This document shows positions 6,418 through 32,183 of a stretch of DNA of 32,183 nucleotides, one piece after another. Under the pieces are notes generated by a model. It did no database searches and was not told the DNA's origin. It saw nothing but the letters and a program-made list of their open reading frames with translations. The DNA comes from Rhodoferax sp. GTDB lineage: Bacteria > Pseudomonadota > Gammaproteobacteria > Burkholderiales > Burkholderiaceae_C. Position 1 is the stretch's first letter; each line of letters begins with the position of its first letter. A program made the translations under genes and the position numbers. The stretch lies in the NCBI GenBank assembly GCA_029865675.1, contig JARXAU010000008.1, positions 1-32,183 on the forward strand, read 5' to 3'.

Positions 6418-6433
6418 AAACAGACGTCTGTTT
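6418..6433. promoter_or_regulatory. 16-bp perfect palindrome, candidate operator
   Basis: AAACAGACGTCTGTTT is a perfect 16-base palindrome centred at ACGT. It lies 32 bases before the favoured start (6465) of the large DUF1800 gene. Its size and symmetry fit a binding site for a dimeric repressor or activator. The regulator is unknown and none is encoded nearby. Confidence 0.4.
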
Positions 6434-6464
6434 AGACGCATACCTGCAACCTAGGGATTGCAAG

Positions 6465-12371: not shown

Positions 12372-13783
12372 TGACCACTACCAACGCCCGCCGTCAATTC
12401 TTGCGGGCTGCCACCGCATTGGCAGCCAGCCCTGGCATGCCTGGGCTGAGCATGTCGCTGGCTGCACTGACCGCACTGGCAGCACAGACCAGCCAAGCTG
12501 CTGACGTGAGCGGCCCATACAAGGCCATCGTCTGCCTCTTCATGCACGGTGGTTGCGACACCCACAACTGGGTGGTGCCTACCGACCCAACCGGCTATGC
12601 ACAGTACGCCGCAGCACGAAGTGAATTGGCATGGCCCCTGCAAAAGCTGCAGCCCATCCTGGTCGCCGGCCAAGCCGCTGGTCGCACTTTTGGCATGCCT
12701 GAAGAGCTTGCGCCGTTACGCAAGTGGTATGAATCCGGCCAGGCAGCCGTGGTTGCCAACGTGGGCCCGCTGGTTCGGCCCGTCACGCGGGCTGAGTACC
12801 TGGCCGGCGTCGGCCTGCCGTCAAAGCTGTTTTCGCACAACGACCAGGCGTCCACCTGGCAGAGCCTGCAGCCTGAAGGCGCACCTTCAGGCTGGGGCGG
12901 GCGCATGGGCGACATCTTGATGTCGGCCAATGCTTACCCGGTGTTCACATCGGTGTCGCTCAACGGCAACGCAGTGTTCTTGTCAGGCAGCAGCGTCACC
13001 CAGTACCAGATGGGCGCGGACGGGCCAGTACAGATTGCCGGCCTGACAGGCAGTGCTGTGTATGGCGCCAGCGCCGCACCTGCAGCCTTGCGGCGCCAAC
13101 TGGCCGCTGGCGGCAGCCACCCATTGCAAGCCGAGTACACCCGCGTGCTGCAGCGCAGTATCGGCACCACCAGCGTATTGCAGGCTGCCCTGGCAGGTGT
13201 CTCAGTGCCTGCCATACCGGGCACCGTGCTGTCCAATGCAACAGGCGGCACCGCACTGGACAAGACCAGCCTGGCCCGCCAGTTGCGCATGGTGGCGCAA
13301 CTGGTGGGTGCCGGCCCGGGCCTGGGCATGCGGCGGCAGGTGTTCATGGTCAGCATGGGCGGGTTTGACACACACGCTAACCAGATGCGCGACCAGCCAG
13401 CCCACATGGCCCAAGTCGCCCATTCGATCGACTATTTCATGACGGCCTTGGCCACCATGGGCCTGCTCAATAACGTGACGCTGTTCACGGCATCGGACTT
13501 TGGCCGCACGCTGCTGAGCAACGGCGATGGTAGCGACCACGGCTGGGGCAGCCACCACTTTGTACTGGGAGGCGCAGTGCAGGGCCGCAACATCCACGGC
13601 AGGTTCCCCATCACCAGCCTGGGCACCAGTGACGACGTGGGCAGCGGCCGGCTGCTGCCAGCCTATGCTGTAAGCCAGGTGGCAGCCCCGTTGGGCCGCT
13701 GGCTGGGGCTGAGCGCCGGCGAGGTGGCAACAGTTCTGCCCGGCCTGGCCAACTTTGACGCACAGGCATTGCGGTTCATCTGA
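12371..13783 (+). CDS. DUF1501 family Tat-exported protein
   Basis: This 470-residue protein has a twin-arginine type N-terminus (RRQFLRAAT at residues 7-15) followed by a long Ala-rich hydrophobic stretch. It is therefore probably exported folded, perhaps with bound metal. Motifs of the alkaline-phosphatase/sulfatase-like DUF1501 family are MHGGCDTHNW (58-67), SHNDQ (155-159), GGFDTH (D333, H335), SDFGRT (D376), and SDHGWGSHH (D389, H390, H395, H396). These may form a metal site. The ATG overlaps the DUF1800 stop (TGATG), so the two are translationally coupled, as is usual for this pair. The paralogue at the left window edge shares long stretches. Substrate unknown; the setting suggests exopolysaccharide. 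Confidence 0.92.
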   Translation: MTTTNARRQFLRAATALAASPGMPGLSMSLAALTALAAQTSQAADVSGPYKAIVCLFMHGGCDTHNWVVPTDPTGYAQYAAARSELAWPLQKLQPILVAGQAAGRTFGMPEELAPLRKWYESGQAAVVANVGPLVRPVTRAEYLAGVGLPSKLFSHNDQASTWQSLQPEGAPSGWGGRMGDILMSANAYPVFTSVSLNGNAVFLSGSSVTQYQMGADGPVQIAGLTGSAVYGASAAPAALRRQLAAGGSHPLQAEYTRVLQRSIGTTSVLQAALAGVSVPAIPGTVLSNATGGTALDKTSLARQLRMVAQLVGAGPGLGMRRQVFMVSMGGFDTHANQMRDQPAHMAQVAHSIDYFMTALATMGLLNNVTLFTASDFGRTLLSNGDGSDHGWGSHHFVLGGAVQGRNIHGRFPITSLGTSDDVGSGRLLPAYAVSQVAAPLGRWLGLSAGEVATVLPGLANFDAQALRFI

Positions 13784-13997
13784 AGGCAGTTGCCCTGCAG
13801 CGCGCGGGGCATCGGTAACATTTGCTGCACGGGTAGGCGGTGGACGCAGGCACACAAAATGCTGGTGTGCTTTGTGCGTTAGCATTTCTCTGCTGACGAC
13901 TTGTCACAGCCCTGACGGGTGCGAGGCGGATGATCAGGCCCATACATGATGGGCTGGCTACCACCGCCTGCAAGCCCGCCCCGAATCGCAATTGCTC
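13784..13997. other. Intergenic gap between DUF1501 gene and glycosyltransferase run
   Basis: These 214 bases show no gene. Two small inverted repeats are visible: GCACAC/GTGTGC at 13850-13870 with a nine-base loop, and GCCCAT/ATGGGC at 13938-13954 with a five-base loop. Neither is followed by a clear T tract, so terminator function is doubtful. A promoter for the downstream run could sit here, but no strong match was found. Confidence 0.3.
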
Positions 13998-15194
13998 ATG
14001 CATTTCATCTTGCTGGTGCACCACGACGCAGATCTTTATGGTGCAGACCAGTCGCTGCTAAGAACCGTGCGGGCCATGAAGGCGAGCCCGTTCACCCCCA
14101 TCGTCACCCTGCCTCACCAAGGCCCGCTGGTTGCGTTGCTGCTGGCTGAAGGCGCAGAGGTACACATTGGCCCGGTGGGCAAGCTGACCCGCCAATTGAT
14201 GCGCCCCGCCGCCCTGCACAGGTTGCTGGCCGACCTGTGGCGATCGGTCAGGTTCATGGGCCGCGTGGTTGCGGGCAGGCCAATCAGCTTGGTGTACACC
14301 AACTCTGTGGCTGCGTTGGGTGGCGCACTGTGGGCTGCGCTGCACCGCAAACCCAAGCTATGGCATGTGCGCGAAATCGTGGTGGCGCCCAAGCTGGCCG
14401 CCGTTGGGTTCCCTACAGTGCTGCAACTGCTTGGTGGTTGGTGCGTGTGCAATTCCAACGCCACTCGGCAGTGGATTGTGGGCACCCGGCCCGCGCTGGC
14501 GCAGCGCAGTTCAGTCATCTGGAACGGGCTAGAAGCCACTACGCCGATCAGGCCAGGCGCTGCTGCTGCGTTCCGCGCCAAGATGGGGCTACAGCCAGGC
14601 GACATAGTGGCCACCCTGGTGGGCCGCATCAACCGCTGGAAGGGCCAGGGCGTGCTGATCGAAGCCGCCCGCCTGCTGAAGGCGCAGGGGCATAGGCAGC
14701 TGAAGTTCTTGATCGTGGGTGACGTGGCCGACGGGCAGAACCATTTCAGGCAAGACATGCTTGCGCAGATTGATGGCGCAGGCGTGCAAGACAGCGTGCT
14801 GTGGCACCCCTTCACCCCCGATGTGAACACCGTGTGGGCGGCGTCTGACATTGCCGTGGCCCCGTCCATCGACCCCGAGCCCTTCGGCCGTGTGGCCATT
14901 GAGGCCATGGCCCAACAGCTGCCCGTGGTGGCCGCCGCCCACGGTGGGTTGGCTGAAATAGTGTTGGACGACGTGACCGGCATCCTGGTGCAGCCAGGCA
15001 GCGCGCCTGCCCTGGCCGCAGCCATTGCCCGCCTGGCCGATGCGCCCACCCTGCGCGCGCAGATGGGCCAGGCCGGCAGGCAACGCCAACAGCAATGCTT
15101 CAGCCAGGCCGAACATGATCAGAAGCTGATGGCGCTGCTGACCACCCTGGCCGCCCAGGGCACACCAACGCAAGCGGCTGCGGCCAAGCCATGA
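13998..15194 (+). CDS. GT4-family glycosyltransferase
   Basis: This 398-residue protein has the GT-B fold pattern of family 4 retaining glycosyltransferases. The N-terminal donor-independent half starts MHFILLVHHDADLYGADQSL. The C-terminal half begins around residue 195, with the phosphate-binding LVGRINRWKGQGVLIEAA segment (about 207-224) and the nucleotide-sugar motif DPEPFGRVAIEAMA (about 292-305). It has no signal peptide and should act on the cytoplasmic face, adding a sugar to a lipid-linked oligosaccharide. The sugar cannot be read from the sequence. The ATG at 13998 is preferred over a TTG two codons earlier. The stop overlaps the next gene's start (ATGA). Confidence 0.88.
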   Translation: MHFILLVHHDADLYGADQSLLRTVRAMKASPFTPIVTLPHQGPLVALLLAEGAEVHIGPVGKLTRQLMRPAALHRLLADLWRSVRFMGRVVAGRPISLVYTNSVAALGGALWAALHRKPKLWHVREIVVAPKLAAVGFPTVLQLLGGWCVCNSNATRQWIVGTRPALAQRSSVIWNGLEATTPIRPGAAAAFRAKMGLQPGDIVATLVGRINRWKGQGVLIEAARLLKAQGHRQLKFLIVGDVADGQNHFRQDMLAQIDGAGVQDSVLWHPFTPDVNTVWAASDIAVAPSIDPEPFGRVAIEAMAQQLPVVAAAHGGLAEIVLDDVTGILVQPGSAPALAAAIARLADAPTLRAQMGQAGRQRQQQCFSQAEHDQKLMALLTTLAAQGTPTQAAAAKP

Positions 15195-16321
15195 GTACCG
15201 CAACTTCAGGCAACCGCCCCCACTTGCGCATCTTGGGCATCCGCGGTGTGCCCGCAGCCCACGGCGGCTTTGAAACTTTTGCCGAGTACCTTGCACCGTA
15301 TCTGGTGCAACTCGGCTGGCAGGTGACGGTGTATTGCCAGCAAGACAGCGGCAACGGCATCACCCATGACCAATGGCAGGGTGTGCACCGGGTGCACATC
15401 CCCGTCAATGCGGCCGGTGCGGCCGGCACCATCGTGTTTGACTGGTTGGCCACCCGGCATGCATCGCGCACCCAAGACCTGTGCCTGACCCTGGGCTACA
15501 ACACAGCCGTGTTCTGCGCCCTTCTGCGCTTGAAGGGCGTGCCCAACGTCATCAACATGGACGGCATTGAATGGTCGCGCGCCAAGTGGGGCCCGCTGGC
15601 CAAGGCCTGGTTCTGGCTGAACGAGCGCGCCGGCTGCTGGCTGGGCAACCACCTGGTGGCCGACCACCCTGCCATCAAGCAGCACCTGGCCACCCGCGTG
15701 CGCGCCGACAAGATCACCACCATCCCCTACGGCGCTGACCAATTGCACGGCCTACCCACCAGCCCTGTGCTGGCACTGGGCCTGCAACCTGGCAAGTACC
15801 TGACAGTGATTGCGCGACCTGAGCCCGAAAACTCACTGCTGGAGATCGTGGCGGCCTTCTCGCGCCAGCCGCGCGGTGTGCAACTGGCCGTGCTGGGCAA
15901 CTACAGCGATGCCAACCCATACCACCGCGCCGTGAAGGCCGCAGCCAGTGCCGAGGTGAAGTTTCTGGGCGCCATTTACGACAAGACCGTGGTGCAGGCG
16001 CTGCGCCTGCACTGCATGGCCTACATCCACGGCCACCAGGTGGGCGGCACCAACCCGTCATTGGTGGAAGCGCTGGGCGCCGGCAACCCTGTGATAGCGC
16101 ATGACAATGCCTTCAACAGGTGGGTGGCGGGCGACGGTTCGCAGTTCTTTCGTGATGTTGAGAGCTTGGCAGAAGCTATCGATTTGATGATTGGCGACAG
16201 GAAACTGAGCCAAACCATGAAGCTAGCAAGTTTACGCAGATTCAAAGATGGATTGACTTGGCCGAGTGTTCTTGAGCAGTACAACGACTTGTTGGCCAAA
16301 TCAATGGCCAAAACCAGTTGA
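15191..16321 (+). CDS. DUF1972/GT4 glycosyltransferase (rhamnosyltransferase-like)
   Basis: The 376-residue protein begins with the DUF1972 signature GIRGVPAAHGGFETFAEYL (about residues 16-34). This domain occurs at the N-terminus of GT4 enzymes in polysaccharide clusters, some of them rhamnosyl- or fucosyl-transferases. The middle NMDGIEWSRAKWG motif and the C-terminal GGTNPSLVEALGAGNPVIAHD donor-binding motif (with its E as the usual catalytic glutamate) are intact. The start overlaps the stop of the preceding GT4 gene, so translation is coupled. From about 16140 onward the base composition becomes AT-richer, continuing into the polymerase gene. The acceptor and donor are not predictable. 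It is cytoplasmic and acts on the lipid-linked precursor. Confidence 0.9.
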   Translation: MSTATSGNRPHLRILGIRGVPAAHGGFETFAEYLAPYLVQLGWQVTVYCQQDSGNGITHDQWQGVHRVHIPVNAAGAAGTIVFDWLATRHASRTQDLCLTLGYNTAVFCALLRLKGVPNVINMDGIEWSRAKWGPLAKAWFWLNERAGCWLGNHLVADHPAIKQHLATRVRADKITTIPYGADQLHGLPTSPVLALGLQPGKYLTVIARPEPENSLLEIVAAFSRQPRGVQLAVLGNYSDANPYHRAVKAAASAEVKFLGAIYDKTVVQALRLHCMAYIHGHQVGGTNPSLVEALGAGNPVIAHDNAFNRWVAGDGSQFFRDVESLAEAIDLMIGDRKLSQTMKLASLRRFKDGLTWPSVLEQYNDLLAKSMAKTS

Positions 16322-16335
16322 GGCAGAAAGCACAA

Positions 16336-17874
16336 ATGCAACAGCCTATCAAAGTACTTCCAATCTTCATTTGGATGCTGTTTCTGGTATTGGCACTGCT
16401 AATCGGCCTGGCAATTCCTTTACTGCCAATGAAAGTGTCCACAATCTTCGGGCTGATGATCATTACAGCAATGGGCATAATTGTTGCCTTCTTATTGCCA
16501 GCTAGAGAGTCGGTGCCAGAACGCATGATTGCGGCACTTTTGGTACTTGCAATTGCCAGCAAATTTTTATGGCCGAGCTTTTCTTATATTCCAATTCCAG
16601 GGCTGCCAACCAAGAACCCACAGCGCTTAATTTGGGCTGCCTGTTTGCTATATTGGGTGTACACCCTCATGGTAAACAAAGAACTTCGCGAGAGATTGGC
16701 GAAGAGACTATCACAATCAAGCACATCACTTTTGGTTGGTATATTTTTTACGTGGCGGTTCATTGCCATTTTCAATAGCGATTACCCTGACGTTTCAGTT
16801 CGCATATTTTTGTTAGAGCTTTTTGACTATGTTCCAGCCTATCTTTTTGCGTTAACTTGGCTGAAGCATTCAATTGATGTTCGGCGCATTACTACATCAC
16901 TGGTTGTGGTGTTGATTTGCATCCAGTTTATTACATTGATTGAAGTAATTACCAAAAGCAATCTGTTCTTGGCACTGGTGCCCACGGATACATCGAGCGA
17001 AGAATTTTTAGCTGCCGCGACTGAAACCAAGATGCGCGCTGGCTTTTACCGTGCACAGGCGTCATTCAACCATCCACTTCTATTGGCCCAGTTTGCGGTG
17101 TCCGTCCTGCCACTTGTATTGGCTGGCCTGTTCGCGAAAGGACAGATGCTACGTAGGGGACTGTCTGTTTTTGCCCTTCTGGGTATCCCAATGATTCTTT
17201 GGGCAACCCAGACAAGAACTGCCATGGCAAGCGCTGCAGTGGTGGTTGTTGTTGCGGGGCTGCTTGTTGCCTACAACGCCGCCACGGTAAAGCAACATGG
17301 TTTCAATAAGAATATCGGCGGTACCATTTTCCTTCTATGTGGTTCTCTTCTGGCAGTAGCCGCGCTGTTTTTGGTAATTGGCTTGGCGGAAGGGCGAACG
17401 GCTGAAGAATCTGGCAGTACTTTTGCCAGGGTTCTTATGCTGGAGCTGGCCTTGGATGCAGCAAAAGATTCGTGGCTATTGGGATATGGCCCAGGTGTGG
17501 GCGGCTACAAAGCAGCATTGACCAGCAGCAATGGCAGATCTTCTTTGGACAGCCAAATTCTGAGCCAATTGCTAGAGGCGGGCGTTGTCGCAATGGTCGT
17601 TTACAGTCTCTTCTTCTTCCAGGCTGGCAAGCGATTTTTCGGGTTAGCGAAAGTTGCGGGTACAGAAGCAGGGATTACCTATGCGATGTGGTGCCTGACC
17701 GTGGTCATATTCGGCTTCACGTCGCTCGTGCTATCGACACCGCACAACATGCCGCTACTGTTTTTTGCTCTTGGGGCGATTGTCGTCTTGAAGGAAACTT
17801 CCATCTCAGCGGCTTCGGCAACCCAAGAAAAACGACAGCTTTTCATGCGCCCGAATTTTCTTCGGCACGAATAA
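16336..17874 (+). CDS. O-antigen ligase/polymerase-like membrane protein (Wzy-type)
   Basis: This 512-residue protein consists mostly of hydrophobic segments (about 11-13 predicted by eye). It has a large hydrophilic loop around residues 210-250 (PTDTSSEEFLAAATETKM) and a second around 370-420 containing the GYGPGVGGYK motif. Such a G-x-G-rich loop with a preceding Arg-containing segment is common in Wzy polymerases and WaaL ligases. It probably joins repeat units on the periplasmic face. The ATG at 16336 is chosen over a TTG at 16318 that overlaps the previous stop. The gene is clearly lower in GC than the flanking genes, as is usual for polymerases of exchangeable polysaccharide loci. Polymerase versus ligase cannot be separated by sequence alone. 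Confidence 0.82.
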   Translation: MQQPIKVLPIFIWMLFLVLALLIGLAIPLLPMKVSTIFGLMIITAMGIIVAFLLPARESVPERMIAALLVLAIASKFLWPSFSYIPIPGLPTKNPQRLIWAACLLYWVYTLMVNKELRERLAKRLSQSSTSLLVGIFFTWRFIAIFNSDYPDVSVRIFLLELFDYVPAYLFALTWLKHSIDVRRITTSLVVVLICIQFITLIEVITKSNLFLALVPTDTSSEEFLAAATETKMRAGFYRAQASFNHPLLLAQFAVSVLPLVLAGLFAKGQMLRRGLSVFALLGIPMILWATQTRTAMASAAVVVVVAGLLVAYNAATVKQHGFNKNIGGTIFLLCGSLLAVAALFLVIGLAEGRTAEESGSTFARVLMLELALDAAKDSWLLGYGPGVGGYKAALTSSNGRSSLDSQILSQLLEAGVVAMVVYSLFFFQAGKRFFGLAKVAGTEAGITYAMWCLTVVIFGFTSLVLSTPHNMPLLFFALGAIVVLKETSISAASATQEKRQLFMRPNFLRHE

Positions 17875-17898: not shown

Positions 17899-18915
17899 AT
17901 GTTCGAAAGCCAAGCCCCAAGCGGCAATCAAAATCGCATCTATGTAGTTCTTCTCAATTGGAACGGAGCTGCGGATACGCTAAACTGTTTACAGTCGCTT
18001 CTGCAAATTCAAACCAACCGGGTTGACTATGTGGTTTGTGACAACGCCTCCAGTCAGAAAGACTTCACCTCGCTTCAAACCGGTGTGGCTGATTTTTGCA
18101 CTGCCAACTCAATAAGGTTGCAGTGCTTCGAATCAAAAAACTGGCCAACGACGATTTGCCCAGCCAATGGCCCAAAGAATCTATTCTTGATTCAAACCGG
18201 TTCGAATCTCGGCTTCGCTGGCGGTGTAAATGTTGGACTTCGATTTGCGCAGAGTCGCGGAGACTTGGCTTATGCGTGGATTTTGAACAATGATTGCGAA
18301 ATTTCATCAGGTGCACTGGAAACATTGGTTTCGCGTTCAATGGCTGAGCAAACCATCGGCATCTGCGGGTCCACTTTGGTCTACCACGGCGACAGAAGCC
18401 GCGTGCAAGCCTTGGGCGGCGCACGCTACCTGCCATGGCGCGGGCGCTCACTGTCCATTGGCGCGTTTTCGGCAGCAAACACCATTCCCACCGATCCAAC
18501 CCGAGTGGAGCGCCAGTTGGACTATGTTGTCGGCGCGTCAATGCTGGTCAGCCGCAAGTTTCTGGATGTGGTTGGCTTGATGGACGAGCGCTATTTCCTC
18601 TATTCCGAAGAACATGACTGGGCACACCGTGGCCGGCAAGCTGGCTTCACATTGGGTTGGGCACCAGATTCAGTGGTGTTCCATAAACACGGTGCCAGCA
18701 TCGGCAGCTCGGCCAGTGGCGGTTCGCCGCTTTCGATGTTCTATCTTTTCCGTAGCAAAGTCCTTTTTACTTCACTGCACTTCCGCAGACGCTTGCCGGT
18801 TGTGTTGATGTCGCTCGCAATGGACGCGTTGAAGTTCGCATTGAAAGGCCACCCCAGCAAGACATGGGCAGCTTTGCGCGGCATGCTGTCCTACAACGGC
18901 CCAGCTCGTTTTTGA
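17899..18915 (+). CDS. GT2-family glycosyltransferase (WbbL/rhamnosyltransferase-like)
   Basis: The 338-residue protein has the GT-A fold of family 2. It begins RIYVVLLNWNGAADTLNCL with a VVCDNAS strand (about 45-51). The metal-binding DxD-like NNDCE is at 130-134, and the C-terminal catalytic motif DERYFLYSEEHDW is at 229-241. It lacks a signal peptide and is cytoplasmic or membrane-associated. This subtype often transfers rhamnose or another deoxysugar. The ATG at 17899 has a TAGG element eight bases upstream. It lies 24 bases after the polymerase gene and 18 before the acyltransferase gene, so one transcript is likely. The first half shares the lower GC of the polymerase gene. Confidence 0.88.
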   Translation: MFESQAPSGNQNRIYVVLLNWNGAADTLNCLQSLLQIQTNRVDYVVCDNASSQKDFTSLQTGVADFCTANSIRLQCFESKNWPTTICPANGPKNLFLIQTGSNLGFAGGVNVGLRFAQSRGDLAYAWILNNDCEISSGALETLVSRSMAEQTIGICGSTLVYHGDRSRVQALGGARYLPWRGRSLSIGAFSAANTIPTDPTRVERQLDYVVGASMLVSRKFLDVVGLMDERYFLYSEEHDWAHRGRQAGFTLGWAPDSVVFHKHGASIGSSASGGSPLSMFYLFRSKVLFTSLHFRRRLPVVLMSLAMDALKFALKGHPSKTWAALRGMLSYNGPARF

Positions 18916-18933: not shown

Positions 18934-19641
18934 ATGCTCAGGAACCTGCTTAACAAATTTGCAACGCGCGTTAAGGGCAGCGACTACCAACTCGATCCAA
19001 AGCTGCCACTGCTCAGTCTGGTTGGTTTGGCTTCGCGTCGTTTGACATGGCTGATCCGTGGCAGGTTGGCTTTTCCTTTGCGACGATCAGCCATCTATTT
19101 GGGTGACGGTAGCGTGCTGCGCAACCGTGCGCAAATGTCTTTCGAGCCCGGTGTCACCATCGGCCGTGGTTGCGTAGTTGATGCGCTGTCTGCCAATGGC
19201 CTGCGCATTGGCAGAAACGTCAACATCGGCCCCTACACCACCATTCAGGCCAGCGGCGTGTTGTCACGCCTCGGCACGGGCTGTTCGATCGGCGCAAATT
19301 CGGGCATTGGTGGCTATTCATTCATTGGTTGTGGTGGCGGCGTTGCCATCGGCAGCAATGTGATCATGGGCCAATACGTCAGCTTTCATTCCGAGAACCA
19401 TGTCATTGACCGAACTGATGTGCCGATTCGAGTCCAAGGTGTGGTCCGCAAAGGGATCGTGATTGAAGATGACTGCTGGGTTGGCGCCAAAGCCACGTTC
19501 CTGGACGGCTGCCACGTTGGTAAGGGCTGCGTTGTCGCCGCAGGCGCCGTGGTGCGCGGCAACATCCCCCCTTACTCCATCATCGGTGGCGTGCCAGCTA
19601 AGGTCATTCGCAGCCGACTGGCAGTAGACAGTAGTGCATGA
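18934..19641 (+). CDS. Left-handed beta-helix (hexapeptide) acyltransferase
   Basis: The 235-residue protein has imperfect hexapeptide repeats from about residue 60 to 225 (IGRGCVVDALS, IGRNVNIGPYTTI, IGANSGIGGYSFIG, IGSNVIMGQYVSF). It also contains the conserved HSENHVID active-site region (catalytic His) and the C-terminal NIPPYSIIGGVPAKVIR. This is the LbH acetyltransferase fold (WcaF/CatB/Maa type), which uses acetyl-CoA and acts as a trimer in the cytoplasm. It probably O-acetylates a sugar of the repeat unit. Its stop overlaps the start of the next GT4 gene (ATGA). The acyl group and target are not known. Confidence 0.9.
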   Translation: MLRNLLNKFATRVKGSDYQLDPKLPLLSLVGLASRRLTWLIRGRLAFPLRRSAIYLGDGSVLRNRAQMSFEPGVTIGRGCVVDALSANGLRIGRNVNIGPYTTIQASGVLSRLGTGCSIGANSGIGGYSFIGCGGGVAIGSNVIMGQYVSFHSENHVIDRTDVPIRVQGVVRKGIVIEDDCWVGAKATFLDGCHVGKGCVVAAGAVVRGNIPPYSIIGGVPAKVIRSRLAVDSSA

Positions 19642-20894
19642 ACCCAATGCCGATCATGAAGCGCGTCACACTGTTTTCAACGGACATTCCATACCCAGCC
19701 AACCGCGGAGGTAGAGCGGATATCTGGCGCAGAGTGTTGGCGCTTTCGAGATTGGGCGTTGCAGTTCAGCTTGTGTGCTTCTTCGATGACGTTTCTGGCA
19801 AGCGGCCAGAGCAACAGCACCTTGAAGCAGTTCGCGCAGCCACGGCGGGCTTGCTGCTCTATCCGATCAAGCAAGGCAAGCGCGCATTGCTTGAGGCACT
19901 TATCAAGTTGCCGCAGATGCCCTGGCACGTTGCACGCCGGAGCCTGGGCGCGCTGGACCTGCGCGACCTGTGCAGCGTTGTCCAAGAGTTTCAGCCCGAC
20001 TGGCTTTGGTGTGAGGGCCCCTGGTGCGGGCCGCTAGTCCTTGCAGTGCATGACCATATCCAGGTCCCTGTCGCTTACCGTTCCCACAACCTTGAACATG
20101 TGTACATGGCGCGGCAAGCCAGTGCTGCCCGCCGCCCGCGCGATCGACTGGCATGGACCATTGCATGCGTGGGGCTGAGACGGTTTGAGCAGCAAATGCT
20201 GACCACAGCCGACTGGGTGTTCGACATCTCCTTTGACGACATGGCTTTCTGGCAGGCCCAAGGCATCCGAAACATCAGTTGGTTGCCACCAATTGCCGAG
20301 TCTGCGTTGGGCATGGGCACCAGCGCAGATCTGCCGTATACCGAACAAAAGCACGATGTGCTCTTTCTCGGCAACCTGACCACACCCAACAACGTGCGCG
20401 GGGTCGAGTGGCTGGTGAATGAGATTCGGCCCCTTGTGCTGGCGCAACGGCCGGGCACGCAGTTTGTGGTGGCGGGGTCCAACCCTGGCGAGCATGTTCG
20501 CAACCTGTGCAAAGCACCCAACGTCACCTTGCTGCCCAACGTCGCCGACGCTTTGGCTCTATACCGCCAGGCCCGCGTACTGGTAAACCCGGTGCGCACG
20601 GGCAGCGGCACCCATGTCAAGGCGATCGAGATGCTGATGATGCGTACGCCCATCGTCACGTCCACCCAAGGCACGCAGGGCATGCCCGCCGAAGTGAAGC
20701 GCCTGTTCAAGGTAGCCGACACCAGTGAAGCCTTTGCCAGCCATGTGCTGACAGCGTTGGACCAGCCCACTGACTGCTGGCATGAGCGATCAGACGCGCG
20801 GCGCCTGTTTAGTGTGCAGGGTCTGGCAGACGCATTGGCCAAGCTGCCGATGGCGACGGCCTTGCCCGCATTGCAACGCGCTGGTACGGCATGA
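19638..20894 (+). CDS. GT4-family glycosyltransferase
   Basis: This 418-residue GT-B enzyme has an N-terminal segment DIPYPANRGGRADIWRRV (about 15-32) typical of exopolysaccharide GT4 proteins. Its acceptor-domain motif is YRSHNLEHVYMARQA, and the C-terminal domain has LGNLTTPNNVRGVEWLV and PVRTGSGTHVKAIEMLMMRT. The last stands in place of the E-x7-E motif, with E at the expected position. The ATG at 19638 overlaps the acyltransferase stop; Met4 and Met7 are alternative starts. The stop overlaps the lyase start as ATGA. Its position directly before a polysaccharide lyase makes it likely that it serves the same polymer. Substrates are not predictable. Confidence 0.88.
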   Translation: MNPMPIMKRVTLFSTDIPYPANRGGRADIWRRVLALSRLGVAVQLVCFFDDVSGKRPEQQHLEAVRAATAGLLLYPIKQGKRALLEALIKLPQMPWHVARRSLGALDLRDLCSVVQEFQPDWLWCEGPWCGPLVLAVHDHIQVPVAYRSHNLEHVYMARQASAARRPRDRLAWTIACVGLRRFEQQMLTTADWVFDISFDDMAFWQAQGIRNISWLPPIAESALGMGTSADLPYTEQKHDVLFLGNLTTPNNVRGVEWLVNEIRPLVLAQRPGTQFVVAGSNPGEHVRNLCKAPNVTLLPNVADALALYRQARVLVNPVRTGSGTHVKAIEMLMMRTPIVTSTQGTQGMPAEVKRLFKVADTSEAFASHVLTALDQPTDCWHERSDARRLFSVQGLADALAKLPMATALPALQRAGTA

Positions 20895-23026
20895 CAACGC
20901 CGGCGCGCAGCAGCAGGCTGACTGGGCAACGCCGCTGGCTGCTGCAACGGCTGGCCATGTTGGCCACAGCCCCCGCATGGCTGCGCCCAGTGAACGCTGC
21001 CGCAGCAGGGGCAAACACGGAGACATTCTTTGCGATGGTGTTGCGCAGGGTGCGTGACGACTACATGGCAGAAGGCGGGCCGGGCGACGCCACGCGCTTT
21101 GTAGCGACCATCAACACCAACGGCACCTGGGACGACGTGGACTATGCAGACCGCGGCATTGGCGACTGGCGCCCGATGCCGCACTTGGTGCGCCTGCGCC
21201 GCATCGCCCGTTCGCTGGCACAACCGGGGCAGGCGCCCCCAGCCATGCAGACGGGCACTGATGCCCTGAACCGTGGGCTGCGCGCCTGGTTGCAACGCAA
21301 GCCCATGTCTGACAACTGGTGGCACAACACAATTGGCCAGCAAAGGGAAATTGGTCGCGTCATCGTGCTTGGTCGCGCATTGTTGGATGAAGACATCGCG
21401 GTGCAGGCCATAACCCTGCTGCAAGACCCAGGGATGGTGCCACCAGCCCAAGCGACGGGACAAAACCTCACTTGGTACGCCACACAGCAAGTGCTGCGTG
21501 GCGCATTGCGGAACGATGCTGGTGATCTGGTGCGCGCCAGCGCCGCGCTGGCATCCACCTTGCGCATCACGTTGGACGAAGGAATCCAGCCCGACTTCAG
21601 CTTTCACCAGCACGGTGCCCAGTTGTATACCGGCGGCTATGGCCTCGGCTTTTTGCAAGACAACGTGCAGCTTGCCGCATGGCTGGCAGGCACGCCCTGG
21701 GCATTGTCTGGCAGCGGGCTGGACTTGCTTGCCAACTACGCGTTGCGCGGCATGGTGCCGCTGCTGCGGGGCACGCAGTGGCTGGAGTGGGGGGCGCGTG
21801 GGCGCGAATTCACCCGCAAGGAAGACTTGCCACGGCCCGGTCTGGTGGCCAATGCGATGGTGCGGCTGGCGCCGCTGGTGCCAAGGCGCAGCACCGACCT
21901 GTCAGCCGCTGCGGCGCGCACCAAGGTGGGTGGGCCACCACCGGCGACAACCAACCAGTTGTTCTGGCGATCCGACTTCATGGTGCACCAGACGCGCAGT
22001 GTCTACATGTCAGTCAAGATGTGCAGTGCCCGCACGGTGGGCACCGAGTCAGGCAACGGCGAAAACTTGCAGGGGTTCTGGTTGCCCTTTGGCGTGACTT
22101 ACCTGTTGCGCCGGGGTGATGAATACGATGGCTTACCGCCGGTATGGAACTGGTCGGCCCTGCCAGGCTTAACGGCACCCGATGCCGTACCACCGCTAAA
22201 GGGCTACCAGACTCACCAAGCGCAGTTTGTCGGCGGCGTGTCGGACGGTGCAACCGGCGTGGCGACCATGGCGCTGGACAAGTTGCAGACAACCGGCAGA
22301 TTGAGCTGGTTCTTCATGGGCGACACGATGGTGGCCATGGGCGCTGGTATCCGATCCACCCATGACCACCCGATAGCGACCACGCTGAATCAATGCCGCT
22401 GGACTGGCCTGGTACACACCAGCGCCGGCCCATTGCCCGAAAGGGGCGACCGCACATCGACTGCAGGGGCCCGGTGGCTTTGGCACGACGGGCTGATGTA
22501 CCTGCCGCTGGACGGGCCGGATCTACTGGTCCAACGTGAGCACCGCACGCAGAGCAGCAGTGCTATCAACAGTGCCCTTGGTGCGACCAATGCCAACGCC
22601 AAAGTGTTGACGATCGCCATGCAGCATGGCCTGCGGCCTGCTGGGGCGAAGTTTGCCTACGCTGTGTCTACCCCTACAGCAATGCCAGTTAGTGCCACTG
22701 TGGACTTGAAGCTGCAAATTCTTTCGAACAGCGAATCCCTGCAAGCCCTGCGCTGGCTGACGACCAGCCAAATCATGGCGGTGTTTCACGCCAAGGGGAG
22801 CCTTCTGATTCGAGAGGGCCTCACGCTGGACGTTGACTCGCCCTGCATCTGTCTCATCACTGCGCAAGCTGGCGAATTTGCGATCGGCGTTGGCGATCCA
22901 ACACGGCGCCTGGGCCAGATCGGGTTGAACCTGCGCAACAACGCCGGCAAATCACCCAGCATCAAGTTGACACTTGGCAGTACGACGCCCATACCTTACC
23001 AGGACACGTGGGTAGGGCAACTTTGA
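20891..23026 (+). CDS. Family-8 polysaccharide lyase, exported
   Basis: The 711-residue protein has an N-terminal export signal (QRRWLLQRLAMLATAPAWL, ending near PVNAAAAG). The RRW makes Tat export possible. Family PL8 (hyaluronate, chondroitin AC and xanthan lyases) signatures are visible: NWWHNTIGQQREIGR (142-156), N192 in the QNLTWYATQQVLRGAL region, the catalytic H241 in FSFHQHG, Y250 in YTGGYG, and GREFTRK (304-310). The ESGNGEN..GFWLPFG region and the beta-sandwich C-terminus follow. PL8 enzymes cleave uronic-acid glycosidic bonds by beta-elimination. The start overlaps the preceding GT4 stop, so it belongs to the biosynthetic operon. Probable role: trimming or releasing the polymer in the periplasm. 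This implies a uronic acid in the polymer. Confidence 0.88.
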   Translation: MTTPARSSRLTGQRRWLLQRLAMLATAPAWLRPVNAAAAGANTETFFAMVLRRVRDDYMAEGGPGDATRFVATINTNGTWDDVDYADRGIGDWRPMPHLVRLRRIARSLAQPGQAPPAMQTGTDALNRGLRAWLQRKPMSDNWWHNTIGQQREIGRVIVLGRALLDEDIAVQAITLLQDPGMVPPAQATGQNLTWYATQQVLRGALRNDAGDLVRASAALASTLRITLDEGIQPDFSFHQHGAQLYTGGYGLGFLQDNVQLAAWLAGTPWALSGSGLDLLANYALRGMVPLLRGTQWLEWGARGREFTRKEDLPRPGLVANAMVRLAPLVPRRSTDLSAAAARTKVGGPPPATTNQLFWRSDFMVHQTRSVYMSVKMCSARTVGTESGNGENLQGFWLPFGVTYLLRRGDEYDGLPPVWNWSALPGLTAPDAVPPLKGYQTHQAQFVGGVSDGATGVATMALDKLQTTGRLSWFFMGDTMVAMGAGIRSTHDHPIATTLNQCRWTGLVHTSAGPLPERGDRTSTAGARWLWHDGLMYLPLDGPDLLVQREHRTQSSSAINSALGATNANAKVLTIAMQHGLRPAGAKFAYAVSTPTAMPVSATVDLKLQILSNSESLQALRWLTTSQIMAVFHAKGSLLIREGLTLDVDSPCICLITAQAGEFAIGVGDPTRRLGQIGLNLRNNAGKSPSIKLTLGSTTPIPYQDTWVGQL

Positions 23027-23071: not shown

Positions 23072-23943
23072 TCAAGTGACCTTTGCGCCTGCCACCGGCG
23101 CAAACCGGCGTATCAATATCACCAGCCCCAAACTGAGCCCGAAAGTCAGTGGCAACGCCAACCAATCACCCGCAAGCCCGAAGCGGCGGGCAATTGGAAT
23201 GAATAGCGGATGAACCAGGTAAACCCCAAAAATGTAGCTGGAGAACTTGGCTATCTGATACTTGATGGCCAGCAGACCTGGGAAAGCCACGGGCACAACC
23301 AGCAGCAAACCAACCAGATAAGCTGCCCCGTAGCCATGCATCACCATGCCCGGTAAAACCGATAACGTCAAGATAAGAAAAGCGCCGAGCCGAGCACTTA
23401 CAGCCGATGCCGACATACCGGCCAGTGCCCAACCCAATCCGACAGCCGGAAGGGCATGGACGTATTGCGCATAGGGATATGGCATTGCTGCATGCTCGGC
23501 CAGCAGCAAGCCAACCGATGAAAAGCCAAGGCTCGCGACGACGAACCCAAACCCAACTGTGAACGACGACTGAGTACTTGACCAAGAATCCCTGAAACAA
23601 CGGCAACCACCAGCGCAAAGGGTAAGTACCACAGGTGTACGCTAGGCCCAATCAAAATGGCTGCAGATGTGGAATCGCCTTTGGGAAATGCTGGGTAGCC
23701 CCGGACAATATTGATCAACCCGAATATGAACACCCAAAATAACCAAGGGATGAGAATTCTGACCGCTCGCTTGACAAAGAACTGACTCGACAACCTGCCG
23801 CTGGTTACGATTGAGAAATAGGCGCCAAGGGCAATGAAGAGTACGAGGCCACCATATCCAATTTCCTGCGCGGATATACCCAAGTGGAACCATACAACTC
23901 CGGCGGCGCCCAAGATTCTCAAAAACTCAATATCTTGGCGCAT
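23072..23943 (-). pseudogene. Acyltransferase-3 family protein, frameshifted
   Basis: The start half (ATG at 23943) reads MRQDIEFLRILGAAGVVWFH, with the acyltransferase-3 catalytic His in VVWFH, then several membrane helices up to LPFALVVAVVSGILGQVL. The continuation is in another frame: VGFGFVVASLGFSSVGLLLA, then YIFGVYLVHPLFIPIARRFG and the C-terminal IRRFAPVAGAKVT. The frames join at about 23545-23575, so a single-base insertion or deletion splits one gene of about 290 codons. This family moves acetyl or other acyl groups onto exopolysaccharides at the inner membrane. The break may be real decay, phase variation or a sequence error. It is the last gene of the minus-strand run. Confidence 0.75.
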
Positions 23944-26685: not shown

Positions 26686-28134
26686 TCAACCCTTTGCGCT
26701 GGCCAGCATGGCAAACACTGCCAAGGCACACGCAATCACCAAGCTCTGCCAGTCCTTGGCTGCAAACACCACCGGGTCGTCGTGCATTTCACCGCGGTGC
26801 GTCTTCAACCACACCCGGCTGATCCAGTAGGCCAGGGCCGGCACCGCCAGCCACAGCATGTAGGGGCGGGCATACATCTTGGCCACGTCGGCGCTGTTCA
26901 CATACAACGCCAGCACCAGCACGGCGGTGTAGCCGCTGGCGGCACCCAGGGCCAGCAGCACGACCAGGTCGTCTGTGGAATAGCCACGGCCTGCGGCCTT
27001 GCGTGATTTGCTTTGGGCGGTCTTGATCATCTCGGCATAACGTTTCACCAGCGCCAGGCTCAAGAAGATGAACATTGAAAACGCCAGCAACCAGAACGAC
27101 GGCACGATGGCCGTGGCCGCTGCGCCCGCAAGGATGCGCACCGTGTACAGGCCTGACAGCAGCATCACGTCCACCATCACCTGCGCCTTCAGCTTGATGG
27201 AATAGCTGAGCGTGACCACGTAGTACAGCATCAGCACCAGCAAAAACATGCGCGGCAGCTGCCAGGCCAGGCCGAAGGCCACCCCCAGCAGCGCCAGCTT
27301 CATCGCAGCCCCAAGCGGGATAGACAACGACCCGGCAGCAAACGGCCTGTTCTTCTTGCTGCTGTGCTGGCGGTCGGCAGTGATGTCCAGCATGTCGTTC
27401 AGGATGTAGACGCTGGAGGCACACAGGCCAAACGCAAAGAAGGCCATCACCGCCTGCTGCAGCAATTGCAGATCCGTGGCGCGGTGGGCGGCCAGCAGCG
27501 GCACGAACACCAGAATGTTCTTCAGCCATTGGTGCAGGCGCATGGCCTTCAGCGCCGCACGCATGGCATTGAACGGGGTCGGCGCCAAGAATGCCAACGG
27601 CGCCATGGCCTGTGCTGCAGCCAGCACCTTGGGGCTGGCATTGGCCACCGACACCAGGCCTGCGGCCCGCCACACTGGCAGGTCGTCTTTGCTGTTGCCG
27701 ATGTAGTCAAACCCCTTCTCGCCAAACACCTTGGTCAGGTGGTCAGCCTTGCGCTGGCTTGACAGGTTGATGGCTGGCCCCGTGGTGGCCATCACATCGT
27801 CAAAGATGCCCAGGTGGCGTGCAATGTCTTGTGCGTAGCGGTCGGCGCTGGCCGTTACCAGCACGGTGCGGCGCCCCAGGGCACGCTGCGCCGTCACATG
27901 CTGCACCACAGCGCTGCAGTAGGGCAGCGTGGTGACGTCCACCTGCACCAGTTGGGCAATGCGCAATTTGGTTGCCGCCTTGCCGTGCCGCAGCAGCCAG
28001 AAGGGCACGGCCAATGCGGCCAGGAAGTTCTGCTTCAACAACAGGAGAAAGGATTCAAACAGCAGATCGGTGTGGATCAACGTGCCGTCGCAATCCACGC
28101 ACAGGGGCAGGTTGGCGGGGGTGGGTTGGTTCAT
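26686..28134 (-). CDS. HAD phosphatase-UbiA prenyltransferase fusion (DPPR synthase-like)
   Basis: The 482-residue protein has an N-terminal HAD phosphatase-like domain (about 1-185) with nucleophile D14 in DCDGTLI, T94 in LVTAS, and GNSKDD (146-151). It also has a C-terminal UbiA-type membrane domain (about 200-482) with the prenyl-diphosphate motif NDMLDITADRQHSSKKNRP (N246, D247, D250, D254). UbiA proteins of this subgroup include decaprenyl-phosphate 5-phosphoribosyltransferase. The HAD domain could remove the phosphate from the product. Together this gives a polyprenyl-phosphate pentose donor. The ATG at 28134 is chosen because homology starts there. Neighbours fit such a pathway (GT39-type transferase upstream, small flippase-like protein downstream). 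The DprE1/DprE2 epimerase genes that often accompany it are not in this window. Confidence 0.88.
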   Translation of the reverse strand: MNQPTPANLPLCVDCDGTLIHTDLLFESFLLLLKQNFLAALAVPFWLLRHGKAATKLRIAQLVQVDVTTLPYCSAVVQHVTAQRALGRRTVLVTASADRYAQDIARHLGIFDDVMATTGPAINLSSQRKADHLTKVFGEKGFDYIGNSKDDLPVWRAAGLVSVANASPKVLAAAQAMAPLAFLAPTPFNAMRAALKAMRLHQWLKNILVFVPLLAAHRATDLQLLQQAVMAFFAFGLCASSVYILNDMLDITADRQHSSKKNRPFAAGSLSIPLGAAMKLALLGVAFGLAWQLPRMFLLVLMLYYVVTLSYSIKLKAQVMVDVMLLSGLYTVRILAGAAATAIVPSFWLLAFSMFIFLSLALVKRYAEMIKTAQSKSRKAAGRGYSTDDLVVLLALGAASGYTAVLVLALYVNSADVAKMYARPYMLWLAVPALAYWISRVWLKTHRGEMHDDPVVFAAKDWQSLVIACALAVFAMLASAKG

Positions 28135-28159
28135 GCCTGGGTTCCGTGCGCGGGCAGTT

Positions 28160-29668
28160 TCATGGTGAGCTGGGGCGCGTGGTGCTGCCGTTTGGCACAG
28201 CGAGCTGGTAGTGCACAAACGCAGCTGCTTTCGCAACCTGCTTGTACTGACCTGTGTCCAACAGGGGGCGTGCCCGGCGGCCAGGATCAACCCCCTCACG
28301 CGGTGAAAACACGATGTCGTCGGGCAACTGGGCGGGGTTGAGTCCTGGCTTGGGATAGCGGCTGAATGGGATCAACCGTAGCGGCACACTGTCACGGTAA
28401 CCAATGCCAGGCACGGCCAGCCCGTAGTAGGCCAGGGCACGCTCATCGGCCAGCCACACCACGGTGCGGCCGGCAGCCAATGATTGCTGCGCCCATGCAG
28501 CAGCCAGGCGATAGTCGTCCTTGTCATGGCGGGGTGCCAGACGATTTGAAACGGCGCTGGTCAGCAGCCCAAGTGCCAGCGTACCCGCCACAAGGCGGCT
28601 GCCCAGGCTGCGCTGCCCGGCGGCATGCTGCAAGAACACGGCATGCGCCAGCACCACCACCGGCAATACAGCTGACAGATGGCGGCCCATCACGCGCCAG
28701 TGCAGCACCAGGCCCAGGATCACCATCACCACAAACGGCAGGCCGGCGGCAATTGCAAATGCAAGCCGGGTACGGCGTGTCGGCAGCCGCCACCAACTGG
28801 CGGCCACAGCCCAGGCTGACAGTGCGGCCAACAGCGCCATCAACACCAACTGGGCAGGGTTGGACTGCAGCACGCTGATGCGCAAATCGTGCCGAGACGG
28901 CCCCAGCCCTGTAGCCCCCAGCAGCTCGATCAGCCCATAGCCCATGCCTGGCACAGAAAACGCAGCGGTCTGATTGGCACGCGCACCCGATATGTGGCTG
29001 TGCACGGCCACTGCCAGCATGGCGCCGCCCATCAGCAGCGTCAGGGCGACCCACCACCACTGCCGGCACGCGGCGTACAGCACCTGCTTGGCCACTTGGG
29101 GATAAAGCAGCCCCAGCACCAGCAGGCAGCTGGCCACCCAGAACACACCCAGGACACTGCCACCCACCAGCACCACGGCCCCCAGCAGGCATTCACGCAG
29201 GCCCTGGGCCAGGGCAACGTCGGTGCTGTCCGGGCGACACAGGCGCAGCATGCCGGCCATCAGCCAGCAGGCGCCGGCCACATACAGCACGTAGGGCCTG
29301 GCGTCATTCACGTAGTACCAGACAAAGCCATTCAGGGCAAAGCTGGTCAAGAGCCACGGGGTCTGCACCTTGCCCGCGGTTGCCCGCTGCAGCCCGGCCA
29401 GCGCCAAAACAAGCCAGGGCAGGTTTGCCACGCGTAACACCCATTCTTGGGTTCCAAAAACCTCAGTCCACACCCACATGTAGGCGTGGTACAGCGGCAA
29501 CTGGCCGTCGCTGTTGTAGTGAAGCCAGAACCCCGCTGCCCACTTGCTGAAAGTTGGCGGCAGGGCCAGTTCCCATGTGCCGATCTCGTCGGTCCACAGG
29601 GACCGGTTGTCGATCGCCAGCAGGCCCAACACCAGTGCCAGTACAACCGGCAGCAATCGCGCAGTCAT
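28160..29668 (-). CDS. GT39/ArnT-like membrane glycosyltransferase
   Basis: This 502-residue integral membrane protein has about ten hydrophobic segments. It shows the N-terminal periplasmic motif RSLWTDEIGTWELAL, whose D27-E28 is the typical acidic pair of PMT/ArnT (GT-C fold) enzymes using a polyprenyl-phosphate sugar. The SDGQLPLYHAYMWVW segment, the VNDARPYVLYV segment, and a soluble C-terminal part with LADERALAYYGL follow. The ATG at 29668 starts the signal-anchor helix (ARLLPVVLALVLGLLAID). An in-frame extension to 29887 reads poorly and is not used. The natural donor would be a lipid-linked sugar made by the adjacent HAD-UbiA enzyme. Acceptor unknown. Confidence 0.82.
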   Translation of the reverse strand: MTARLLPVVLALVLGLLAIDNRSLWTDEIGTWELALPPTFSKWAAGFWLHYNSDGQLPLYHAYMWVWTEVFGTQEWVLRVANLPWLVLALAGLQRATAGKVQTPWLLTSFALNGFVWYYVNDARPYVLYVAGACWLMAGMLRLCRPDSTDVALAQGLRECLLGAVVLVGGSVLGVFWVASCLLVLGLLYPQVAKQVLYAACRQWWWVALTLLMGGAMLAVAVHSHISGARANQTAAFSVPGMGYGLIELLGATGLGPSRHDLRISVLQSNPAQLVLMALLAALSAWAVAASWWRLPTRRTRLAFAIAAGLPFVVMVILGLVLHWRVMGRHLSAVLPVVVLAHAVFLQHAAGQRSLGSRLVAGTLALGLLTSAVSNRLAPRHDKDDYRLAAAWAQQSLAAGRTVVWLADERALAYYGLAVPGIGYRDSVPLRLIPFSRYPKPGLNPAQLPDDIVFSPREGVDPGRRARPLLDTGQYKQVAKAAAFVHYQLAVPNGSTTRPSSP

Positions 29669-29852
29669 GGCTGGCCTGACCCGCAGACACTGCGGAAGGA
29701 GTGGTTCGCCGGCGTCTGCAACATCTGGCACCAGACTTTCAAGAGTCGCAAGAGACCCGCCTTTCGGTTCAACAAGGAGTACATCAATTTCAGACGCCGG
29801 TGCAGCAGGTTCAAAGGCAACACCAGGGGCATGCGGCTGGCTGGAAGTTTGG
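29669..29852. other. Gap between methyltransferase and GT39-type genes
   Basis: The 184 bases hold no gene I recognise. A minus-strand frame (reading MPLVLPLNLLHRRLKLMYSL at its start) could encode about 55 residues, but it has no family resemblance or ribosome binding site, so it is not called. Confidence 0.4.
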
Positions 29853-30806
29853 CTAAGCGCGCCGAAGCACAAACCCGGCCTGGTCACCCCGTTTGTCTGT
29901 GTTCAATTGCCGCGCACGCGCATCGAATGCGGCGATGTCGGCAGCACTGAAGATCGACGCATCAGGGTTCACCGAATTTGACTTGGGGCCGGATAAGGCA
30001 ATGCCTTTGCGGTTTTGCTCACTGCCCCAAAACTGGAATGCCGTCGAATCAAACCGCACGTGCTCACAGCTGAACCCGGCATCGCGCACAAGGCGCTGCA
30101 TGCTGTCAACGCTGTGCAGATAAAAGTGCCTTGGTGCGTCGAGCTGCACCCAATCCAGCCCGTAATGCGCCCAGGCTTCAGACGACGACAAAGGCACCCG
30201 CACGATGCAATGGCCACCCGGGCGCAAGCACTGGTAGGCCAGCCGCAAGGTGCCCAGTTGATCGGGCATGTGTTCCAGCGAATGGTGGAACATGATCAGA
30301 TCAAACGTGCCATCCATGGCGTCAAGCGTGGACCGACGCACCAGTGGTTGCCCGGCATGCATCAGGTCAGCGTCGGCAAACGGGTCGATGCCCAAGGCAT
30401 TGCGCATGCCGGCTTCTCGCAACAACAGCACCAGCGCACCGCTGCCACAGCCCACGTCAAGCACGGCTGAATCGATGCGCAGGGCAGCCTTGGCGGGCCC
30501 AAGAAAGTCAAACAACTTCGTGGGCTGCAGCTTGTTGAGCAATGCACCCGCAAGACCACCGCCGATGACCGCGTGTCGATTTCTGGCAGCCACCACGCGG
30601 CGATACAAGCCACCAGACTTTCTGGGCTTGAATGAGTAATAGCCAGCACCGTAATAGCGGGCCATATCATCTGGAATGCTGCAGATTTGCAGGCACCCAC
30701 ACTGGTTGCATTGAAAGTATGGGTGCAAATCCCCAATGCCGTACATCTTCTCCGTGGCATTGAAAACTTGGAACTCACCTTCTGACCCACAAATTCTGCA
30801 AAGCAT
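29853..30806 (-). CDS. Class I SAM-dependent methyltransferase with N-terminal zinc-ribbon-like motif
   Basis: The 317-residue protein begins MLCRICGSEG, with C3, C6, C33 and C36 forming a Cys4 zinc-binding pattern. The SAM-binding motif I, VLDVGCGSGALVLLL, is at about 115-129. An LIMFHHSLEHM motif (motif II region) and LRPGGHCIVRVP (post-motif III) follow. A strong AGGAGG (30814-30819) seven bases upstream fixes the ATG at 30806. It probably methylates a sugar or a lipid-linked sugar precursor; C-methylation or O-methylation cannot be told apart. It lies 113 bases after the flippase gene. Confidence 0.88.
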   Translation of the reverse strand: MLCRICGSEGEFQVFNATEKMYGIGDLHPYFQCNQCGCLQICSIPDDMARYYGAGYYSFKPRKSGGLYRRVVAARNRHAVIGGGLAGALLNKLQPTKLFDFLGPAKAALRIDSAVLDVGCGSGALVLLLREAGMRNALGIDPFADADLMHAGQPLVRRSTLDAMDGTFDLIMFHHSLEHMPDQLGTLRLAYQCLRPGGHCIVRVPLSSSEAWAHYGLDWVQLDAPRHFYLHSVDSMQRLVRDAGFSCEHVRFDSTAFQFWGSEQNRKGIALSGPKSNSVNPDASIFSAADIAAFDARARQLNTDKRGDQAGFVLRRA

Positions 30807-30952: not shown

Positions 30953-32183
30953 TCATGCGCGCCTGTTGAACAGGCCAATCGCTGTTGACAAGATCAGCCG
31001 GCGATCGTCGGCAGTCAGCACGGCGAACGCACCCACAAGTAAGGCCACCACGGTCGCGCCGGCAGCTACATTCGTCGAGCCGCCCGCCAGAACATATTGA
31101 TGTGCTTGCCAGGCACAGACACATGTACCCAGCATGAGCAATACCTTAAAAGCACCCAAGCCATGGCGTATAGGCATCAACCTGCTTTGCACCCAAAGCA
31201 GCAACACAAAGTCGACTGTGGCCCGCACCGCCCAAGCCAGTGCAGCACCTTCGATACCAAACCGCGTCGTTAGCCAAAACAACAGCAACAGAAATATCGG
31301 AAACTCGCAAAGATGCAGCTTGGCGGTTGTGTCCGCACGACCTGCACTTTGGATGGCAGTGAAAGTAACCCGCGCCACGCAATTGATTGCGAAGCCCAGA
31401 GCCAAGATTTGCAACACCCAAAAGCTCTTGTCGGCAAACTCGGTCGTGATCCAGATCGCCAGTAGCGGTTGCGCGAACGCCACCACCAAAGCAGCAACGG
31501 GCAACATCACGGCAACCATCACACGCAGGCTTTGACCGAAGAGTTGGTGCGCGCGCTCGGGGTTTGTCGCCATGGCCGCCCCAAGGGCCGGAAAAAGTAC
31601 GCCCAATATGGCCTCAGGGATGATGGTGAGCCTGCTTATTGCTTCATAGGGCGTGGTGTAGTACGCGACCATGCTGGCCCCGACGACATAAGCGACCACG
31701 AATCGATCCAGATACGACAGCACCGGCGAGATGATGTTGGACACTGTCATCCAGCCGCCCGATACAAGCAACTGGCGCAACTCTGCACGGTTGAACCATC
31801 GTGGGTACTCTGAATTTGCAGGCAGCACACGACCTACTGCATAAGCATGGACTGCCCAAGTCACAGCACGCGCAGCCGCCAGAAATATGACGACTGGAAC
31901 AAGGCCACTGTAAAACTGCAACACCACGAGCGGGCCACCGTAGGTGATGAAACCCATGCTGAGGCGGATTGCACTCGTCACGTCAAAGCGACCGTACGCC
32001 TCAAGTACACCGCGCAATGCAGCTGTGGTGGTGACAAAAGGCAGCGCAGCCGACACAGCAAACAAGGATGCTTGCGCCTGTGCCACAAGGGCTGCGTCGT
32101 CGCCGCCCATCAATCCGGCTAGGTTTGGCGTCACCAGCGCCAATAATCCGCCACCTGCTGCGCCCAGCGCAGCTGTGAGCACC
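30953..32183 (-). CDS. wzx: Polysaccharide flippase, Wzx type, 5' end cut by window edge
   Basis: About 410 residues are visible, with the reading frame open to the window edge, so the N-terminus lies beyond it. The protein has at least nine hydrophobic segments, and motifs common in the MOP/Wzx flippase superfamily are seen: ALRGVLEAYGRFD, GGWMTVSNIISPVLSYLDRF, YTTPYEAISRLTIIPEA, and FTAIQSAGRAD. Wzx proteins move undecaprenyl-linked repeat units to the outer face of the inner membrane, where the Wzy-like protein works. It is the first gene of the minus-strand run, while the polymerase candidate is on the plus strand. A lipid II flippase (MurJ) reading is less likely given the sequence style and gene setting. 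The stop is at 30953-30955. Confidence 0.85.
   Translation of the reverse strand, partial: VLTAALGAAGGGLLALVTPNLAGLMGGDDAALVAQAQASLFAVSAALPFVTTTAALRGVLEAYGRFDVTSAIRLSMGFITYGGPLVVLQFYSGLVPVVIFLAAARAVTWAVHAYAVGRVLPANSEYPRWFNRAELRQLLVSGGWMTVSNIISPVLSYLDRFVVAYVVGASMVAYYTTPYEAISRLTIIPEAILGVLFPALGAAMATNPERAHQLFGQSLRVMVAVMLPVAALVVAFAQPLLAIWITTEFADKSFWVLQILALGFAINCVARVTFTAIQSAGRADTTAKLHLCEFPIFLLLLFWLTTRFGIEGAALAWAVRATVDFVLLLWVQSRLMPIRHGLGAFKVLLMLGTCVCAWQAHQYVLAGGSTNVAAGATVVALLVGAFAVLTADDRRLILSTAIGLFNRRA

Follow-up and report, generated by a model that had tools for sequence, protein, structure and literature searches.

The window analysed here, the whole 32,183-nucleotide stretch of a Rhodoferax sp. 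contig, carries a tight run of seven forward-strand genes in the order GT4-GT4-Wzy-GT2-acetyltransferase-GT4-PL8. The first gene encodes a GT4 glycosyltransferase (GT4a, 13992-15194; PF00534, 128.5 bits), and it is followed by a GT4 with a DUF1972 domain (GT4b, 15191-16321; PF09314), a Wzy-type polymerase of the O-antigen ligase superfamily (16318-17874; PF04932, 39.3 bits), a rhamnosyltransferase-like GT2 (17899-18915; PF00535, with TIGR01556 below its cut-off), a hexapeptide-repeat acetyltransferase (18934-19641; PF00132), and a third GT4 (GT4c, 19638-20894; Glyco_trans_1_4, PF13692, 75.5 bits). The frame of the Wzy gene opens at 16318 on a TTG that overlaps the end of the preceding GT4 gene as TTGA, and a later start is possible. 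The seventh and last gene of the run (20891-23026) encodes a member of polysaccharide lyase family 8 (PL8); it begins with ATG, specifies 711 amino acids, and contains no internal stop.

The first-pass annotation had proposed that this lyase gene starts on the ATGA of the preceding GT4 gene and closes the biosynthetic run, and the open reading frame coordinates agree on both points: the ATG of the PL8 gene shares four bases with the TGA stop of GT4c (ggtacggcATGAcaacg), and no gene of the run follows it. Overlaps of this size are found at four of the six junctions (GT4a/GT4b, GT4b/Wzy, acetyltransferase/GT4c and GT4c/PL8, each at -4 bases), while the Wzy/GT2 and GT2/acetyltransferase junctions have gaps of 24 and 18 bases, respectively. 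We found no obvious Shine-Dalgarno sequence upstream of the PL8 ATG. Judged from the sequence, the overlap between GT4c and PL8 is consistent with translational coupling.

Several further genes of the window flank the run. Upstream of the run on the same strand are a GDP-mannose 4,6-dehydratase gene (gmd, 2958-4070; TIGR01472, 584 bits against a cut-off of 415), a GDP-L-fucose synthase-like gene (fcl, 4721-5701; NF047922, 482.6 bits, just below the cut-off of 500), and a gene for a 1994-residue protein in which Pfam recognizes eleven CBM60 domains and a C-terminal DUF1800 (6387-12371). The last of these overlaps the gene for its DUF1501 partner (12371-13783; PF07394, 101 bits), so that the pair spans 6387-13783. 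The same CBM60-DUF1800 architecture is found in the clusters of two other genomes described below (G1150 and G012), and DUF1501/DUF1800 pairs recur in the exopolysaccharide (EPS) clusters of G1150, G012 and G083. Such pairs are also reported beside bacterial chitin synthases (PMC5122149), and the pair hints at a function in handling or anchoring surface polysaccharide. A second DUF1501 gene lies at 69-1403; in G1150, the gene that it matches best is paired with a further CBM60-DUF1800 gene located just upstream, and the start of the window therefore probably cuts a second DUF1800/DUF1501 pair. Downstream of PL8, on the reverse strand, an acyltransferase-3 gene (23072-23943) is split between two reading frames (ORFs of 181 and 186 amino acids), which reflects either a frameshift or a sequencing error. 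The reverse strand also encodes, at 26686-29887, a UbiA-HAD protein (PRK08238, 618 bits; related to decaprenyl-phosphate phosphoribosyltransferase) and a multi-spanning membrane protein of unknown family, which possibly provide the polyprenyl-phosphate pentose donor, and the transferase that uses it, for decoration of the polymer. Converging on the run from the end of the contig, which truncates it, is a gene for a Wzx-type flippase (30953-32182, reverse strand; PF13440).

The assignment of the lyase to PL8 is supported by all three Pfam domains of the family, each above its gathering score (Lyase_8, 203.8 bits; Lyase_8_N, 103.4 bits; Lyase_8_C, 38.5 bits), and these domains account for the family architecture of an N-terminal alpha/alpha toroid, a super-sandwich, and C-terminal beta domains. 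In a comparison with the PDB, the nearest solved protein is chondroitinase AC (275 bits, aligned over residues 67-693), followed by xanthan lyase (97 bits) and a second chondroitin AC lyase, 1rwa (94 bits). We take the catalytic residues of chondroitinase AC to be Asn175, His225, Tyr234, Arg288, Arg292, Glu371 and Asn374. These align with N192, H241, Y250, R305, R309, E386 and N389 of the window protein, so that all seven are kept, as they are in the PL8 of G1150, and in an alignment of 11 sequences H241, Y250 and R305 are invariant. A PL8 protein with the catalytic Asn-His-Tyr and its supporting Arg and Glu residues should be active as an enzyme. Its substrate is less constrained. PL8 enzymes differ across the family in the polymer that they cleave, with chondroitin, hyaluronan, xanthan and mannuronan among their substrates, and similarity at the 30% level fixes no single substrate for the window enzyme. 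The enzyme also stays far below the cut-off of the NCBIfam chondroitinase AC equivalog model (NF043001), with 315 of the 1000 bits required. An AlphaFold2 prediction made with a single second sequence had a mean pLDDT of 30.5 and was set aside.

By eye, the N-terminus of the lyase (MTTPARSSRLTGQRRWLLQRLAMLATAPAWLRPVNAAAAGA) resembles a Tat signal. The probable Tat-type signal peptide (20930-21001, residues about 14-37) consists of R14-R15-W-L-L, a hydrophobic stretch, and a region of small residues, AAAA. The G1150 protein shares R14, R15, L17, L18 and A36-A38 and has RRHLL at the motif. The enzyme probably leaves the cytoplasm in folded form through the Tat pathway.

Evidence that the lyase is a stable part of the cluster comes from G1150, a 99% complete genome of another genus that we found in a family-wide search with the window Wzy. 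It reproduces the order GT4, GT4, Wzy, GT2, acetyltransferase, GT4, PL8, with identities of 66%, 74%, 44%, 57%, 72%, 65% and 51%, respectively (44-74% overall). Both clusters contain DUF1800/DUF1501 pairs with CBM60 repeats (69% identity for the DUF1501 protein encoded at 12371-13783), and in both, the opposite strand encodes an acyltransferase-SGNH protein, the UbiA-HAD protein (74%), the membrane protein (56%), and Wzx (59%). The G1150 PL8 gene again lies directly after the same GT4, here with a 14-base gap and, as read from the sequence, a probable GTG start; it is thus the adjacency of GT4 and PL8 that is conserved, and not the exact ATGA. Since PL8 is about as diverged as its neighbors, it behaves as expected of a long-standing member, and the synteny makes it a conserved component of the cluster. 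Past Wzx in G1150 come EpsI-B, exosortase B (XrtB), EpsG, EpsF, EpsE and EpsD, genes that identify the export type of its cluster as exosortase-B. The window contig ends at Wzx, just short of the region that holds these genes in G1150. No Poly_export domain was found in the window genome, whose completeness of 70% may explain the missing export genes.

A phylogenetic tree groups the PL8s of the window and of G1150 in one clade (support 100/100), apart from the PL8s of the same family that are encoded in catabolic loci. The cluster is patchily distributed, occurring in one of the 21 genomes of the G1150 genus, and because only two genomes have the PL8-containing form, its conservation amounts to one independent comparison. 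PL8 is also rare in the genus of the window, where the window genome is the only one of 103 to encode it. This rarity is what one might expect if an unrelated lyase gene had been inserted after GT4 recently, or if faulty binning had put PL8 there. We consider such an origin highly improbable: the genes lie on a single contig in overlapping reading frames, and the identical arrangement in G1150 refutes it, unless G1150 is misassembled as well. Together, the -4 overlap and the synteny with a second genus place the gene inside a conserved biosynthetic operon.

Wider searches placed the window PL8 in contrast with other members of its family. Counting the window genome, PL8 was found in three of 399 genomes from the order and in three of 399 from the phylum. 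A scan of 151 genomes of the family matched the window genome, G014 and G035; a further match in G103 (E 4.7e-4) was rejected as spurious, as it is surrounded by in-frame stops and runs antisense to a long ORF. No relative turned up in the viral collection, and the only sizeable "phage" match was an unannotated 4.3-kb fecal scaffold with an adjoining ORF that we judged by eye to be polygalacturonase-like; a phage origin was therefore dropped. The four other PL8 loci examined from the same order (G014, G035, G466 and G514) adjoin TonB receptors, MFS or ABC transporters, GH35, fucosidase or galactokinase (galK) genes, and this company of receptors, sugar transporters and glycosidases gives them a catabolic appearance.

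These loci raise the possibility that the window PL8, too, serves the catabolism of foreign chondroitin-, hyaluronan- or xanthan-like polymers and stands at the end of the operon by chance. Its closest characterized relatives are catabolic enzymes, and a Salmonella PL8, like those of the four loci above, is found near genes of this kind, namely a PTS and GH88. Against this, a Pfam search of the window proteins revealed no transporter, TonB receptor or GH88 beside the window PL8, its position is kept in another genus at about the divergence of the biosynthetic genes, and it falls outside the clade of catabolic PL8s. No GH88 unsaturated-uronyl hydrolase was found in the window genome as a whole, although at 70% completeness this absence carries less weight. 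On balance, a catabolic function seems improbable to us. The earlier proposal that the lyase belongs to EPS biosynthesis gains support instead from the syntenic, PL8-inclusive cluster of G1150 and from the catabolic surroundings of the other PL8s in the order, and these sequence comparisons put its biosynthetic membership on much firmer ground than the ATGA alone.

PL8 enzymes usually break down uronic-acid polymers. If the lyase acts on the product of its own operon, that polymer should contain a uronic acid. The first-pass annotation saw no UDP-glucose dehydrogenase in the window, and our scan of the window proteins likewise found none. The window genome does encode one on another contig (C108), where the gene is cut by the contig end; the part present scores 224.5 bits against a UDP-glucose 6-dehydrogenase model, below the full-length cut-off. 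The same contig bears gmd, fcl, mannose-1-phosphate guanylyltransferase and galE genes. The G1150 cluster itself includes a full UDP-glucose dehydrogenase gene (L065:14112-15443; 662 bits to 2y0e, a solved UDP-glucose dehydrogenase), which stands between the DUF1501 gene and the first GT4 gene. With one dehydrogenase inside the G1150 cluster and another in the window genome, a uronic acid in the window polymer becomes more likely. The remaining sugars are less certain, as gmd and fcl had no match in the G1150 region that we retrieved.

Taken together, we think it probable that the PL8 is a catalytically competent, exported enzyme that is built into its own operon for maintenance and cuts the uronic-acid EPS that the operon makes. 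The exported lyase, probably folded and delivered by Tat, would meet the EPS made by its own Wzx/Wzy system, probably of the exosortase-B type, and would cleave it by beta-elimination beside a uronic acid residue that is probably glucuronic acid. Its targets may be polymer misplaced in the periplasm or chains that are too long at the surface, which the enzyme would clear or trim much as AlgL does with alginate. Here we infer the export route, the substrate, the compartment, and the choice among clearing, trimming and release.

The same operon and the same G1150 synteny would equally fit a PL8 that is secreted to the outside, where it would remodel or release the cell's own matrix, for dispersal or for control of chain length at the surface, and would take no part in periplasmic clearing. 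The signal peptide speaks for exit from the cytoplasm only, and type II secretion accepts folded Tat proteins. The known operon lyase AlgL, on the other hand, works in the periplasm, from which it clears alginate (PMC8829089), and we regard action exclusively outside the cell as unlikely, although it is the chief alternative.

The maintenance role that we favor has precedents in unrelated systems. AlgL, encoded in the Pseudomonas alginate operon, is likewise an exported lyase whose gene sits among the biosynthesis genes for its polymer. It is, however, a PL5 enzyme of a synthase-dependent system, whereas the window lyase is an unrelated PL8 in a Wzx/Wzy cluster that is probably of the exosortase-B type. 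A second glycan-cleaving enzyme, PslG, has its gene co-transcribed with the EPS genes of the psl operon (PMC9075953), but it is a glycoside hydrolase of a different family that acts on a different polymer, whereas the window enzyme is a lyase. Within PL8, chondroitinase AC of Flavobacterium (Pedobacter) heparinum (PDB 1cb8/1hm2) shares a full-length match and the kept catalytic residues; it is distant, at about 30% identity or less, and the window enzyme differs in having a Tat-like signal and a place in an EPS operon. As for the cluster type, the full exosortase-B set (EpsD/E/F/G, XrtB and EpsI) is present in the G1150 homolog.

Related clusters encode other cutting enzymes. A homologous cluster in G012 (Wzy identity 28-29%) contains the CBM60-DUF1800/DUF1501 genes followed by a GDP-mannose 6-dehydrogenase gene and an alginate-lyase-like gene, with a heparinase II/III-type gene further along. 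NCBIfam had left the type of this dehydrogenase undecided; the PDB comparison gives 571 bits to AlgD, which assigns it to the GDP-mannose type. This exosortase-B cluster (L069, L074) could possibly make a mannuronate-containing EPS through Wzx/Wzy. The gene adjoining Wzy encodes a GH5 protein in G1235 and a WbsX-domain protein in G083. Pfam names WbsX a glycosyltransferase; domains related to it are glycosidase-like. No obvious lyase or other cutting gene was seen in the parts that we looked at in G1163 and G1226, which share only a distantly related Wzy. This distribution points to polymer-matched cutting enzymes as a recurrent, though variable, feature of these clusters.

A broader and more tentative reading, which we put forward as possible rather than probable, is that exosortase-B EPS clusters of this family include an interchangeable gene for a cutting enzyme, and that the type of enzyme tracks the uronic acid of the polymer, with PL8 as a dedicated EPS maintenance enzyme. 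The pairings behind it are PL8 with UDP-glucose dehydrogenase (in G1150, and in the window genome with the dehydrogenase elsewhere), an alginate-lyase-like protein with GDP-mannose dehydrogenase (in G012), and GH5 or WbsX proteins in others. With two dehydrogenase-lyase pairs, the sample is too small to prove that the lyase follows the uronic acid.

A lyase in an EPS operon is already known; a PL8 in an exosortase-B Wzx/Wzy cluster, shared by two genera, appears to be a new form of this arrangement. The open papers that we searched did not describe a PL8 in an EPS or exosortase-B cluster, a result that supports novelty only weakly. The best-known polymer operon with a lyase of its own is that of alginate, where the enzyme belongs to PL5. 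If the maintenance role proposed here is correct, the same principle would apply to a further lyase family and to a different route of polymer assembly. If, in addition, the family of the lyase follows the uronic acid, the cutting gene would help to predict, from the genome, the structure of polysaccharides that have yet to be studied, and each cluster would supply a matched enzyme with which to analyze or degrade its polymer.
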